The notes under the pieces were generated by a model, which was not told where the DNA came from, did no database searches, and saw only the letters and a program-made list of their open reading frames with translations. A stretch of DNA of 64,000 nucleotides, taken from positions 1-64,000 of the forward strand of contig CASEGL010000008.1 in the NCBI GenBank assembly GCA_949287525.1. The letters run 5' to 3'. Numbering within the stretch: position 1 is the stretch's first letter; the number at the start of each line of letters is the position of its first letter. Below are positions 18,403-64,000 of this stretch, piece by piece. Position numbers and translations under genes: made by a program. This DNA is from an uncultured Rikenellaceae bacterium (lineage in GTDB: Bacteria > Bacteroidota > Bacteroidia > Bacteroidales > Rikenellaceae).

Positions 18403-18950
18403 CGAAAACATCGGCGAAAGAGAAACCGCATCGGCCAAAACCGCACCCGCCTCCTCTGCAGACCGTGCCGGAAGCCACCGCACCCCGGCCTCCACCTCCC
18501 GGCCTCCACTCCCCTGCCTCCGCACTCCTGTCTCCGACCGGCCGACCCTACATACCGCAAACCACACGGCACACGGCACACCGTCTCCGGCCGACCGCTT
18601 ACCCGCACAAAGCACGGCATGTCCCTCCCGCCTGCCGAGGTACGCGTATTCAGTTGGCTGCCCCTCTTCCCTTTCCCCGCCCGTCGCCGCGCAGCCTGCA
18701 CGGCAGACACCGGACGCACCGTCTCCTCCTGCGCCGTCCCGCGCTCCGTACCGACCAGCCACACCGCATCATCCCCCGCTGCGACCGGCAGGGCGGAACC
18801 GCCTCCGGACGGCCTCCCCGCTGCATGGCAAAACCTCTCCCTCCCGCCGCACCGCCATGCCCTCCCGCTGCATGGCCACCTCACCGCTGCACCGCCACAA
18901 TCGCCACGATGGCCGCGGCATCTTCCCCGCAGACAGCAGGCACCCCCTGG
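18403..18950. other. Gene-free, strand-skewed region (C-rich on plus, G-rich on minus)
   Basis: About 550 bases between the hpt promoter and the tsf terminator hold no convincing gene. Open frames on both strands have no recognisable domain and biased composition (Arg/Gly or Pro/Ala/His). The plus strand is strongly C-rich and G-poor, with repeated short motifs: CCGGCCTCCAC near 18484-18512, and CCGCTGCATGGC twice between 18818 and 18876. The minus strand at 18480-18530 has successive G tracts of 3-4 that could fold as a quadruplex. Nature unknown; it may be a decayed gene. Confidence 0.5.
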
Positions 18951-55947: not shown

Positions 55948-58108
55948 ATGTCCGCACGCCAAACAGCACGCACGAATCCCCATCAGCAGAGTATCAAGAA
56001 GAGCATCATGTCCCGCGTCAGGGTGCTTTATGCGATCTTTGCCATCGTTGCCGTCGCCATTTTCGGCATGATTCTCGTCACCCAGTACGGCCCCAACGGC
56101 GGCCCGCTGCGCAACCGGTCGGACCTGAAGTGCTACAAGATGCTCGACGTACCGGCCTCGCGCGGCAACATCTACGCCCACGACGGCCGGATTCTGGCCA
56201 CCGACTCGCCCTCGTACAACATATCGCTCGACTTTACGGTGCTGGACATGAGCGCCGAGGAGTTCAACCGCGAAGCCAACGCCCTGGCCGACAGCCTCAG
56301 CCGGACAATTCCCGCCTACTCGAAAGGCTACTTCGTCCAGCGGCTCCACGCCATCCGCAACAAGGCCCTGCGCGGCGGCCCCGGCAGCCAGAACCAGCGG
56401 CTGATCCGCGAAAAGGTCAATCAGCCCGATCTTCAACAAGGGACGTCTGGGCGGCGGACTGATCTACACGCAGGACGCCGAACGCTACAAACCGTTCGGC
56501 ACGCTGGCTGCCCGCACCCTCGGCAAACCCGGGGAGTTCGGCCTCGAAGCCTCGTTCAACGACGTGCTGTCGGGGCATGACGGCCGCAACCTGTGCGTGC
56601 GCCTGGTGCGCGACGTGTGGGTACCCGTCGTAAACAAGGACAACGTCGAGGCCGTGAACGGCAAGGATCTGGTCACCACGATCGACGTCAACATGCAGGA
56701 CATCGTCGAAACCGAACTGCGCCGCCAGATCCTCGACAAACAGGCCTCCTGCGGCACGGCCGTCGTCATGGATGTCAAGACCGGCGAGATCCGCGCCATA
56801 TCGAACCTGACCCGTTACGGCAATGTCGTCCGCGACGACATCAACCATGCCATCACGATGCGCTGCGAGCCGGGTTCGACCTTCAAGCTGGTGTCGCTCA
56901 TGGCATTGCTGGAGAACTCCAGTTTCGAGCTGACCGATTCGGTCGACTGCTCGGCCACGGGCCGCTACTACTATCAGGTCGGCCGGCGCCGTTTCCTGAT
57001 CGCCGACGACCACAAGGTCGGCAAGACGACGATCCAGGGCATGTTCGAACAGTCGTCCAACATCGGATTCGTCAAGATGATCGACAGCGCCTTCCACGAC
57101 AAGCCGGAACGGTTCACCGACTTCGTCAATTCGCTGCACATCGACCAGCCGATCAACATGCAGCTCACGGGCGGCCTGAAACCGATCATCAAGGATCCGC
57201 GCCGCCCGAAGGAGACGGCCTGGGACGCCATTTCGCTCATCAAGATGGCCTACGGATACGCCGTCGAGATCACCCCGATGCACACGCTGATGCTCTACAA
57301 CGCCATTGCGAACGACGGCTGCATGGTGGCGCCCCGCCTGGTGACGGCCATCACCGAGGACGGCCATGTCGAGGAGAAATTCGATGTGGTGACCATCAAT
57401 GACAAACTCTGCAGCTCCCGCACGCTGCGGCTGGTTCGTCAGGCGCTCGAAGGCGTCGTGGAGAACGGCACGGGATCGCTGATGAAGAACCCCAACTACA
57501 AGGTGGCCGGCAAAACGGGTACGGCGCAGGTAGCCATGCAGAACCGGGGCTACTCCGACGCCCGCGGCGGACGCGACTATCTGGCGACATTCGTGGGCTA
57601 TTTCCCTGCCGACGAACCGCGCTACTCCTGCATCGTGGCCATCAAGACCTACTACGGCCCCGGTTCGCGCAACACCTTCTACGGCGCTTCGCTGGCCGGC
57701 CCCGCCTTCAAGGCCATCGCCGACCGCGTCTATGCGCTCGAGGCCGACTGGCATGCCCCGCTGACCGAAACCGAAGACCAGACCGTCGCCTCGGTCAAGG
57801 GCGGCGACCTGCATGAGATCCGCACAGCAGCCTCGCGGCTGTCGGTCCGCACCGATGCCGACTGGCTCGCCGAGGGCTGGGGACGCACGCAGAAAGACTC
57901 CACCGGCATCGAAGTGCTGCCGCTCGAACCGGAGGAGGGAGTCATGCCGGCCGTCACGGGCATGGCACTCAAGGACGCCCTCTACCTGCTCGAAAGCCGC
58001 GGCCTGCGCGTCCATGTCTCCGGCCGCGGCAAAGTCGTGTCGCAGTCGATCCGCGCCGGTTCGCACATCAGCGAAGGCGCTGCCGTCACGCTGACCCTGC
58101 GCCCCTGA
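55948..58108 (+). pseudogene. ftsI: FtsI/PBP transpeptidase with C-terminal PASTA domain, frameshifted
   Basis: Two overlapping frames together encode a septal D,D-transpeptidase of about 719 residues. The first (from 55948) has a membrane segment at about 27-46, then DVPASRGNIYAHDGRILATDSPSYN, and reads normally to REKVN near 56420. The sequence must then shift +1 to read PIFNKGRLGGGLIYTQDAE. Compared with the family, several residues between these blocks are missing. The rest is complete: active site EPGSTFKLVS (SxxK), EQSSN (SxN), GKTGTAQVA (KTG), and a PASTA-type end with GVMPAVTGMALKDALYLLESRG. ftsI is normally essential, so an assembly error is a strong alternative to true inactivation. 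Confidence 0.8.
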
Positions 58109-61004: not shown

Positions 61005-62381
61005 ATGAAGAAAGTCGTCATACTGGGAGGCGGCGAGAGCGGATGCGGCTCCGCCGTACTGGCCAAAGTCAAGGGCTGGAACACATTCCTCACCGACCGC
61101 GGCACCATCGCCCCGAAATACCTCGAACTGCTCGACCGTCACGGCATTGCCTACGAGCAGGGCGTGCATACCGAATCGGCCATTCTCGACGCCGACCTCG
61201 CCGTCAAGAGTCCGGGCATTCCGGACACAGCGCCGATCATCGTGAAACTCCGCGAGAAGGGCATCCCCGTCATCTCCGAAATCGAATTTGCCGGACGCTA
61301 CACGAAGGGGCGCACGATCTGCATCACCGGCTCGAACGGCAAGACAACGACCACTACCCTGCTCGGTCGCATCCTGCAGGCTGCCGGGTACGACTCGGCC
61401 GTGGGAGGCAACATCGGCGAAAGCTTCGCCTATACGGTAGCCGTAGCCGACAAGGCATGGTATGTGCTGGAGTTGAGCAGCTTCCAGCTCGACGGCATCG
61501 AGACGTTCCGCCCCGACATCGCCGTGCTGACCAACATCACGCCCGACCACCTGGACCGCTACGGATACGTGTTCCAGAACTATATCGACAGCAAGTTCCG
61601 CATCATCCGCAACCAGCGGCCGGAGGACTACTTCATCTACGACATCGACAACCCCGTTGTCAGCCGCGAGGTGGCACTCCGCACGCCCGACCTGCAGATG
61701 CTGCCCTTTGCCGCCCAGCATCCCTACGGTGTGGGGGCCGACTCTTCGGCTTTCGACCGTTCGGGAGCGTTCATGACCGACGGCGACCATTTCCGTGCCG
61801 CCGTCAAGGGACGCGAGGTGGTGATCGACATCCGCCGGATGGGCATCAAGGGCATCCACAACACCTACAACGCCATGGCCGCTGCACTGGCCGCGCTGGC
61901 CGCAGGCGTCGAACCCGCCGTGATTGCCGATACGCTCTACACGTTCGAGGGGGTGGAACACCGCATGGAGTTCGCAGGCCGCGTGAACGGCGTCACCTAC
62001 ATCAACGACTCGAAAGGCACGAACGTCGATTCGACGTGGTATGCGCTCGACAGCATGCGCACCCCAACCGTCTGGATCGCCGGCGGCACGGACAAGGGCA
62101 ACGATTACGACACCCTCAAGCCGCTGGCGCGCGAAAAGGTGAAGGCGCTGGTCTGCATGGGCGTGGACAACGCCAAGCTGATCGACAGCTTCACGGGCGT
62201 CGTTCCGGCCGTGTATGACACCCACTCGCTGGCCGACACGATGCGCATCTGCGCCGAAATCGCCTCGGAAGGCGACACGGTGCTGCTCTCGCCGGCGTGC
62301 GCCAGCTTCGACTTGTTCAAGAATTACGAAGACCGCGGACGGCAGTTCAAGGAGGCCGTCCGTGCGCTGCAAAACCGATAA
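61005..62381 (+). CDS. murD: UDP-MurNAc-L-alanine--D-glutamate ligase (MurD)
   Basis: MurD adds D-Glu to UDP-MurNAc-L-Ala. 458 residues from MKKVVILGGGESGCG (61005): N-terminal nucleotide-binding GGGESG, the ATP loop TGSNGKTTTTTLLGRIL, LSSFQLDGIETF, TNITPDHLDRY, GVEHRMEF, NDSKGTN and the late LLSPACASFDLFKNYEDRG. It starts 4 bases after mraY; ftsW follows after 6. In this pathway order it acts before MurE. Confidence 0.96.
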   Translation: MKKVVILGGGESGCGSAVLAKVKGWNTFLTDRGTIAPKYLELLDRHGIAYEQGVHTESAILDADLAVKSPGIPDTAPIIVKLREKGIPVISEIEFAGRYTKGRTICITGSNGKTTTTTLLGRILQAAGYDSAVGGNIGESFAYTVAVADKAWYVLELSSFQLDGIETFRPDIAVLTNITPDHLDRYGYVFQNYIDSKFRIIRNQRPEDYFIYDIDNPVVSREVALRTPDLQMLPFAAQHPYGVGADSSAFDRSGAFMTDGDHFRAAVKGREVVIDIRRMGIKGIHNTYNAMAAALAALAAGVEPAVIADTLYTFEGVEHRMEFAGRVNGVTYINDSKGTNVDSTWYALDSMRTPTVWIAGGTDKGNDYDTLKPLAREKVKALVCMGVDNAKLIDSFTGVVPAVYDTHSLADTMRICAEIASEGDTVLLSPACASFDLFKNYEDRGRQFKEAVRALQNR

Positions 62382-62387
62382 CGGCGC

Positions 62388-64000
62388 ATGAAGTTCCGCA
62401 AGAGACAAGCCGACACCGCACCCGACCCCTCCTCGGACAGGAAGGGTACGCTCTCTTCGCTGACCGAAAAGGGCGCCGAAACCGTCCAGGCCATCGGCTC
62501 CGGAGCCAAACGGCTGGGAGGCGAGGCGGCGCATGCCATCGGTACGGGAGCGAAGAAACTGTCGGATACGGCCGTCAATGCCCTGGGACCGGAGGCGCGC
62601 AAGTTCACCGAGGAGGCGGCACATGCCATCGGCGCGGGGGCGAAAAAGCTGTCGGATACGGCCGTCCATACGATCGCGCCGGAGGCCAGGCGGCTCACCG
62701 AAGAGGCGGCGCATGCCATCGGTACGGGCGCGAAGAAGCTCTCCGAAGCGGCCGCCAGCACGATCGGGCCGGAAGCCAAACGGCTCACTGAAGCTGGCAT
62801 GGAACTCGGCCGCATCGCCCAGAAGAAGGGCAAACGCTGGATCGACGCTATTTTCGGCGGCGACAAGGTGCTGTGGACGGTCATCATCGTCCTGCTGATC
62901 TTCTCGATGCTGCTGACCTTCTCCGCCACGGTGTACAAACCGGGCGGCACCCCCACGGCAAAGCTTCTCAACCAGATGGCCTTCATCGTGATCGGCATCG
63001 GCTCGCTGCTGTTCGTCCATCTGATCAAGTACCAGTTCTACGGCCGCATCGCCAACGCGGTCTTCATCGTGGGACTGATTCTCACCGTGCTGGCCATGCT
63101 GATCGGTCCGGAGGAGGCGGGCGCCCGACGCGACCTCGACATTCCGCTCGTCCACATCCGGTTCCAGCCGTTCGAAATTCTGAAGATCGGTGTACTGATG
63201 GTGCTGGCCAAACAGCTGGCCCGACGGCAGAAGACCATCGAACACACCCCCATCCTGCCCAGTCTGAACCCGATGGAATGGGCGCGCGACGCCCAGCGCA
63301 ACATGGACATCCTGCGCCACGAGACGATTCCCGTGCTGGGCCCCATCCTGATCACCTGCGTGCTGACATTCCTCTCGGTGGGCAACTCCACGACCCTCAT
63401 CATCGCCGCCACCTGCATGGTGATGCTCTTCATCGGCCGCGTCCGCATGGCCGACTTCGGCAAGATGGTGGCGCTGGTAGCCGTCGTCGGCATCGTCTTC
63501 TTCGCAGCGGGCTTGGGACGAAGCGACACGGGACGCAGCCGTATGGCCAGCTTCAAGCCCGATATGCTCACCAAACACGTCTCCTACACCCGCGACAGCA
63601 TCGAGATATATGACTATCCGGCCGCCACACGCCCCGACGGCAAGGTGATCCCCGGCGAATCGACCCAGTCGCTCAACGCCAAGATGTCGATCGCCTCGGG
63701 CGGCTTCTTCGGCAAGGGTCCCGGCATGAGTACCCACCGGTCGAACCTCGCCGAGGCGGAACGCGACTTTGCCTACGCCTTCATCATCGAGGAGTACGGC
63801 GCCGTCGGCGGACTGATCGTCCTGCTGCTCTATCTGTGGCTCTTCTTCCGCACGATCCAGATCTTCAAGAAGTGCGGCACGGCCTTCCCCAGCCTGCTGG
63901 TGCTGGGTCTGGGGCTGATGATCGTCCTGCAGGCCATGATCCACATGCTCGTTTCGGTGTCGCTCTTCCCCATCACCGGCCAGCAGCTACCGCTTATCAG
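62388..64000 (+). CDS. ftsW: FtsW/RodA-type peptidoglycan polymerase with repeat-bearing N-terminal tail (partial, 3' end off the window)
   Basis: The frame from ATG 62388 stays open to the window end (at least 537 codons). Residues 1-160 are a charged, Ala/Lys/Glu-rich cytoplasmic tail absent from ordinary FtsW. It holds three near-identical 30-residue repeats (44-73, 74-103, 104-133) of the form EEAAHAIGTGAKKLSDTAV..IGPEARRLT, with partial copies on each side. The SEDS core follows from the first membrane segment at about 161-178. It has RRDLDIPLVHIRFQPFEILKI, IASGGFFGKGPG, EAERDFAYAFIIEEYG and a late HMLVSVSLFPITGQQLPLI. FtsW polymerises glycan strands with its PBP partner, here ftsI just upstream. 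Confidence 0.9.
   Translation, partial: MKFRKRQADTAPDPSSDRKGTLSSLTEKGAETVQAIGSGAKRLGGEAAHAIGTGAKKLSDTAVNALGPEARKFTEEAAHAIGAGAKKLSDTAVHTIAPEARRLTEEAAHAIGTGAKKLSEAAASTIGPEAKRLTEAGMELGRIAQKKGKRWIDAIFGGDKVLWTVIIVLLIFSMLLTFSATVYKPGGTPTAKLLNQMAFIVIGIGSLLFVHLIKYQFYGRIANAVFIVGLILTVLAMLIGPEEAGARRDLDIPLVHIRFQPFEILKIGVLMVLAKQLARRQKTIEHTPILPSLNPMEWARDAQRNMDILRHETIPVLGPILITCVLTFLSVGNSTTLIIAATCMVMLFIGRVRMADFGKMVALVAVVGIVFFAAGLGRSDTGRSRMASFKPDMLTKHVSYTRDSIEIYDYPAATRPDGKVIPGESTQSLNAKMSIASGGFFGKGPGMSTHRSNLAEAERDFAYAFIIEEYGAVGGLIVLLLYLWLFFRTIQIFKKCGTAFPSLLVLGLGLMIVLQAMIHMLVSVSLFPITGQQLPLI
62517..62786 (+). repeat. Three 90-bp imperfect tandem repeats in the ftsW N-terminus
   Basis: Copies at 62517-62606, 62607-62696 and 62697-62786 encode 30 residues each. 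The core GCGGC(G/A)CATGCCATCGG recurs every 90 bases. Copies differ mainly at third codon positions, implying selection on the protein sequence rather than a very recent duplication. Confidence 0.85.

Follow-up and report, generated by a model that had tools for sequence, protein, structure and literature searches.

An array of alternating 15-residue half-repeats in the N-terminal tail of FtsW from two sister Tidjanibacter species

The FtsW protein encoded at the end of the analyzed window (64,000 nucleotides of contig CASEGL010000008.1 from an uncultured Rikenellaceae bacterium, genome G000) carried a 158-residue tail ahead of its first transmembrane helix (TM1), with the border lying between FGG and DKVLW. 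The tail contained three tandem copies of a 30-residue repeat, better described as alternating 15-residue half-repeats than as plain 30-mers, and its sequence was constrained. We read the whole protein as an ordinary FtsW in which a juxtamembrane cytoplasmic helix was probably duplicated.

The first-pass annotation had named the gene ftsW, and this identity was upheld by its profile match, fold and position between murD and murG. On the plus strand, ftsW (SEDS septal glycosyltransferase) occupied 62388..63998 and ran off the window end; the ORF from 62388 continued beyond it, and the full protein was 580 aa. The upstream neighbor murD (61005..62381, plus strand) ended 6 nt before the ftsW ATG, and the murD-ftsW-murG order in the dcw cluster was identical in G001, G003 and G020. 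A Pfam profile search matched the product to PF01098 (E 4.8e-49, 167.7 bits vs. a cut-off of 26.4). When the window-truncated FtsW sequence was searched against NCBIfam, the best model was TIGR02614 at 172.5 bits, below its cut-off of 337.5, and the RodA model scored 137.9; a second SEDS paralogue, presumably RodA, was located on another contig of the genome. The SEDS membrane fold of the AlphaFold2 model matched FtsW in 8p1u_A (E 2e-11) and 8bh1_A (E 5e-11), with TM-scores by target of 0.75-0.80. D460, in the large periplasmic loop, was invariant in 47- and 38-sequence alignments; we take this loop to be where the FtsW catalytic residue lies and D460 to be the essential, catalytic aspartate. 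No promoter or terminator was found within the ftsW tail region.

In the window genome, murC was intact, an apparent frameshift in it having come from the choice of ORFs. The ftsI gene (PBP3) was broken at window positions 55948-58108, where it was split into ORFs 55948-56580 and 56564-58108; at the junction (56424/56425), 26 nt present in G001 were missing and the frame was shifted. As FtsI is normally essential, this break is likely an assembly error, with a real mutation as the other possible cause. GC-rich short tandem repeats with periods of 14 and 21 were also present at 18474-18536 and 18840-18898; both lay upstream of a minus-strand ORF's phosphoribosyltransferase-like end.

The tail began with a variable N-terminus (residues 1-23, 62388..62456, plus strand), which was unalignable with most relatives and had pLDDT <50, followed by a border copy (residues 24-43, 62457..62516, plus strand) that in local alignments against shuffles resembled the single ancestral unit of G002, G003, G020 and G021. 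The three-repeat array spanned residues 45-134 (62520-62789) in the FtsW reading frame, with copies GEAAHAIGTGAKKLSDTAVNALGPEARKFT (62520..62609), EEAAHAIGAGAKKLSDTAVHTIAPEARRLT (62610..62699) and EEAAHAIGTGAKKLSEAAASTIGPEAKRLT (62700..62789), all on the plus strand and placed by Tandem Repeats Finder (TRF) and a 15-mer listing. A conserved juxtamembrane helix, EAGMELGRIAQKKGKRWIDAIFGG (62790..62861, plus strand), completed the tail and was common to 6/6 clade species, with an invariant RWIDA.FGG in the alignment. This anatomy agreed with the first-pass annotation, which had placed about 160 residues ahead of the first membrane helix (158 were measured), with three 30-residue copies flanked by incomplete ones (here identified as SLTEKGAETVQAIGSGAKRL on the upstream side and, on the downstream side, the juxtamembrane segment EAGMELGRIAQKK). 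TRF reported a period of 90, 3.0 copies and 79% matches at 62523-62793, and a separate repeat search gave three copies spaced 90 and 90 apart. The lag-30 self-match of the tail reached 53/128 residues, compared with at most 30 matches, whatever the lag, in 10,000 composition-preserving shuffles. At lag 15 the self-match was 41/143, and each 30-residue repeat split into alternating 15-residue halves, one of the EEAAHAIGTGAKKLS type and one of the DTAVHTIAPEARRLT type. The half-repeat pattern A-x-x-x-I-x-x-x-A-x-x-L (I/L, L/F) was kept in 12/12 half-repeats of G000 and G001. Across these 12 from two species, Ala3 and Ala11 were always present, position 7 was Ile or Leu, positions 12-13 were Lys or Arg, position 14 was Leu or Phe, and position 15 was Ser or Thr. 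The copies had been described as differing mostly at silent positions, which was an overstatement, as about half of the differing codons were silent (silent to replacing, 8:7, 9:9 and 8:7 in pairwise counts); the per-site rates, however, did show constraint.

Between G000 and G001, the array (90 codons) had a dS of 0.87 and a dN of 0.166, yielding a dN/dS of 0.191, while that of the FtsW enzyme core was 0.175. Silent and replacing changes per site differed in the array (Fisher p 2e-9), in a test whose sites are not fully independent and whose alignment register is uncertain after copy homogenisation. The array was thus shown to be under purifying selection with its protein sequence constrained, which argued against the repeats being an untranslated leader. 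The first-pass annotation had named two refuting outcomes, a translation start at a later Met near residue 138 and a tail restricted to this assembly, and neither was borne out. The former would make the repeats an untranslated or artefactual leader. A Met is indeed present at residue 138 (62799); however, the ATG at 62388 sits 6 nt past the murD stop, and the ATG-to-murD spacing was identical in G001. In G020, Met138 was replaced by Ile, and it was therefore not conserved across the clade. A start at Met138 is also unlikely because murD would then be followed by >400 nt of noncoding sequence in an otherwise packed operon, and because the sequence upstream of it evolved as coding sequence does, with silent sites changing far more than replacing sites. 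Furthermore, the array was found in the independent G001 assembly (L003/L035). A mis-called start was therefore highly improbable, and the dN/dS, the start position common with G001 and the lack of conservation of Met138 indicated that the FtsW tail is very probably translated.

FtsW was found in 23 genomes of the genus, six of which (G000, G001, G002, G003, G020 and G021) formed a clade. One genome per species was compared. As predicted by the first-pass annotation, repeats were present in a related FtsW: G001 (Ca. Tidjanibacter faecipullorum), the sister species, carried the identical array type. The array-bearing tails were 158 aa (G000) and 156 aa (G001), and those without the array were 73 (G002), 72 (G003), 78 (G020) and 142 aa (G021), the last being long yet not repeated. 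Each of these four species had one copy of a related unit adjoining the membrane, e.g., SEKGTEAARMVGAEAKRLSETGMEIGKKVGKRSRRWIDAIFGG. The copy-number variation sought between strains was seen between species, at one genome for each (three 30-mers in two, one unit in four). In the remaining genus members, where measurable, the FtsW tail was ~20-56 aa. When the tail was sought in 393 Bacteroidales genomes, it matched only FtsW of the same genus, with no match outside it, and elsewhere in the window genome there was a chance match only (E 0.10). No convincing match to the tail was obtained in Pfam, NCBIfam, PHROGs, PDB sequences or phage records; the best PHROGs match (E 0.0013) was judged compositional. 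By these searches, the array appears confined to one small lineage of two sister species of gut bacteria.

The FtsW core tree supported the six-species clade well and did not settle the branching order inside it. Over seven dcw proteins, G000 and G001 were 92% identical to each other and 77-80% identical to the other clade species, and by this seven-gene comparison they are resolved as sister species. The presence of one copy beside the membrane in four clade species suggested that tandem duplication of the juxtamembrane helix was the probable source of the array. The G000 border (residues 24-43) aligned better than shuffles did to the unit that each of the four relatives has once (p 0.0005-0.0025), and the G001 border also aligned to it, although not significantly against G020 (p 0.06). 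From these alignments beyond shuffled expectation, the most likely history is that a juxtamembrane unit already in place was tandemly duplicated into an array before G000 and G001 split. Two of the G001 copies were 86/90 nt identical, and the G000 and G001 arrays differed at their upstream edge. Copy exchange continued later, to judge from recent homogenisation within G001.

Such growth may have been nearly neutral, with a tolerant linker by TM1 duplicated via replication slippage or unequal crossing-over, a copy number without function, and selection merely keeping the segment helical, soluble and non-toxic. The restriction of the array to two sister species and the recent homogenisation of the G001 copies are consistent with this, as is the wide range of Rikenellaceae FtsW tails (about 12 to 130 aa), whose sequences are unrelated and one of which, in L163, has its own repeat. 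Four other genomes (G007, G008, G011 and G018) hold a different, GAHYA-like juxtamembrane motif twice. However, drift is what one would expect of an unconstrained linker, and the repeats were kept about as strictly as the enzyme core (dN/dS 0.19 vs. 0.175), whereas residues 1-23 diverged freely. The strict dN/dS of the array thus counts against neutral expansion, and we consider both the functionless copy number and this limited part for selection somewhat unlikely.

The repeats had been suggested to be helix-prone, and both structure models, which were monomer predictions, drew helix over nearly the whole tail, which, preceding TM1, should be cytoplasmic. AlphaFold2 with 38 sequences predicted one helix at residues 25-90 (pLDDT about 44-67; 51-67 over residues 31-100) and another at 97-155, up to TM1 (pLDDT 76-88 over residues 101-160), so that confident helix was limited to the ~60 residues adjoining the membrane. 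The tail-only model (5 sequences) gave a single helix at 23-156 (pLDDT about 50-72, pTM 0.24). The hydrophobic spacing within each half-repeat was 4-4-3-4, or 3.75 residues per turn (15/4), which is the pattern of a pentadecad coiled-coil repeat. Over the 90 residues of the array, the hydrophobic moment peaked at 96 degrees (0.437) and was close to nil at 100 degrees (0.010), the 96-degree peak being partly forced, as a 15-residue repeat allows moment peaks at multiples of 24 degrees only.

The first-pass annotation had suggested that the amphipathic repeats might bind the inner membrane or a division protein, and that such a tether may regulate septal synthesis. As a peripheral tether along the inner face of the membrane, they would hold FtsW or shape the septal membrane. 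Lys or Arg stands beside the hydrophobic stripe in every half-repeat, and M. tuberculosis FtsQ attaches to acidic membranes and to FtsZ through a cytoplasmic helix rich in Arg and Ala (PMC10036325). On a straight helix, however, the 15/4 stripe drifts about 60 degrees per half-repeat, and the charge swings (net -1 to +2 per 18 residues), low mean hydrophobicity (about 0.02-0.32) and whole-array moment of 0.01 at 100 degrees leave no continuous membrane face; over the repeats, a continuous hydrophobic face with a cationic flank at ~100 degrees was not found. With their moderate moments and near-neutral charge, the repeats gave poor support to membrane binding. The last ~30 residues before TM1 did look membrane-seeking: segment 130-156 was amphipathic, with a moment of 0.35-0.48, and carried a net charge of +3, as predicted for a membrane-targeting amphipathic helix, and this stretch, conserved in six species, is by its sequence the best candidate for membrane contact. 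As a description of the whole array, the membrane tether is unlikely. The 15/4 periodicity is more in keeping with a helical spacer or a right-handed coiled coil than with a long helix laid along the membrane surface, and a right-handed twist has been described for 15/4 pentadecad coiled coils (PMC4786415).

Our preferred explanation, held with confidence just short of even, is that the tail serves in the cytoplasm as a helical spacer or as a clustering arm whose pairing resembles that of a coiled coil. The juxtamembrane helix of FtsW was most likely duplicated in tandem in the ancestor of the two sister Tidjanibacter species, and the tail would form a long alpha-helix that extends TM1 into the cytoplasm. 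Its 15-residue (15/4) hydrophobic stripe could join one FtsW to another, or FtsW to a different helical protein of the divisome, and the tail would thereby set how far FtsW stands from the cytoplasmic division ring or the valency between them. Since one unit can stand in for another, tail length could be altered by unequal recombination. Retention of Ala3, Ala11, Ile/Leu7 and Leu/Phe14 in 12/12 half-repeats supported the coiled-coil reading. On the other hand, most half-repeats hold a mid-unit Gly and alternate ones a Pro, residues that stable coiled coils seldom have there, and core positions that are half alanine make for a weak core. The low pLDDT of the distal helix, the tail-only pTM of 0.24 and the presence of the array in two species only also weigh against an arm. 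A more specific version, in which FtsW carries its own self-associating 15/4 clustering arm whose copy number sets synthase spacing or cluster size and is changeable by duplication, has in our estimate only a small chance of being correct.

The expectation that FtsW starts within a few dozen residues of its first membrane helix held for most Bacteroidota sampled (N-terminal tail ~7-35 residues). Rikenellaceae depart from it: several FtsW proteins of the Alistipes group had tails of 60-130 residues, unrelated in sequence. Long frames partly guided the choice of the Rikenellaceae set, whose tail lengths therefore describe range and give no frequency estimate; in the family survey, a long open frame frequently represented read-through into murD or a long C-terminus rather than a tail. 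Alistipes acquired its long FtsW tails separately. A long tail alone is thus not unusual in Rikenellaceae, and the wide variation in length lowers the surprise of the window tail. The 60-130 aa tails of L162, L163, L168, L180, L183, L184, L186, L188 and L189 began with a recurring motif resembling YDERxxAELARDA. Between this motif and a conserved (F/V)R(I/L)FTG-like stretch that closes the tail ahead of TM1 lay a linker of variable, disorder-like sequence; the motif is possibly a docking peptide on a linker. Residues about 75-120 of the L163 tail formed an independent Ser/Asn-Pro-Gly-Ala tandem repeat, SNPGAAKNTSNPGAAKSSSKPGAAAGSSKPGAAG, with a best lag of 9. The GAHYA-like motif (GAHYxPxxSWxxxIFxG) occurred twice in the L014, L015, L018 and L019 tails and once in G004 (L023), and this difference within the same genus suggests that a juxtamembrane segment was duplicated a second time, independently.

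FtsW regulation is usually traced to loops and partner proteins. Cytoskeletal control of SEDS enzymes has been placed in cytoplasmic loops and partner domains, with FtsA acting on FtsW cytoplasmic loops and MreB binding the PBP2 cytoplasmic domain, so that there are earlier cases of SEDS/bPBP enzymes contacting the cytoskeleton through their cytoplasmic parts (PMC13327600). Our literature search, in a library with few of the subscription journals, returned no report of repeat tails on FtsW and no mention of highly variable Rikenellaceae FtsW tails. An essential division enzyme with a helical tail that is both modular and constrained would offer a natural experiment relating cytoplasmic length and valency to septal synthesis.

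The window FtsW shares sequence, fold, operon position and the invariant D460 with the FtsW/SEDS family (PF01098) and differs from it by the 158-residue repeated cytoplasmic N-terminal tail. The Alistipes-group tails (L163, L189, L162) are similar in position, bacterial family and lineage-specific occurrence, and one has its own tandem repeats, but they combine the YDERxxAELARDA-like motif with an Ala/Asp/Gly/Pro-rich, disorder-like linker, in contrast to the helical 15-mers of the window. With the M. tuberculosis FtsQ helix, that of a late divisome membrane protein, the tail has in common an Ala- and Arg/Lys-rich helix in a cytoplasmic tail; FtsQ, however, is a different protein with a single 29-residue helix, not a tandem array, whose binding to membrane and FtsZ has been measured (PMC10036325), whereas the FtsW array is known from sequence and models. 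The array shares the 15-residue period and 4-4-3-4 hydrophobic spacing of pentadecad (15/4) coiled coils (PMC4786415), from which it differs in its Ala-rich core and its mid-unit Gly and Pro.
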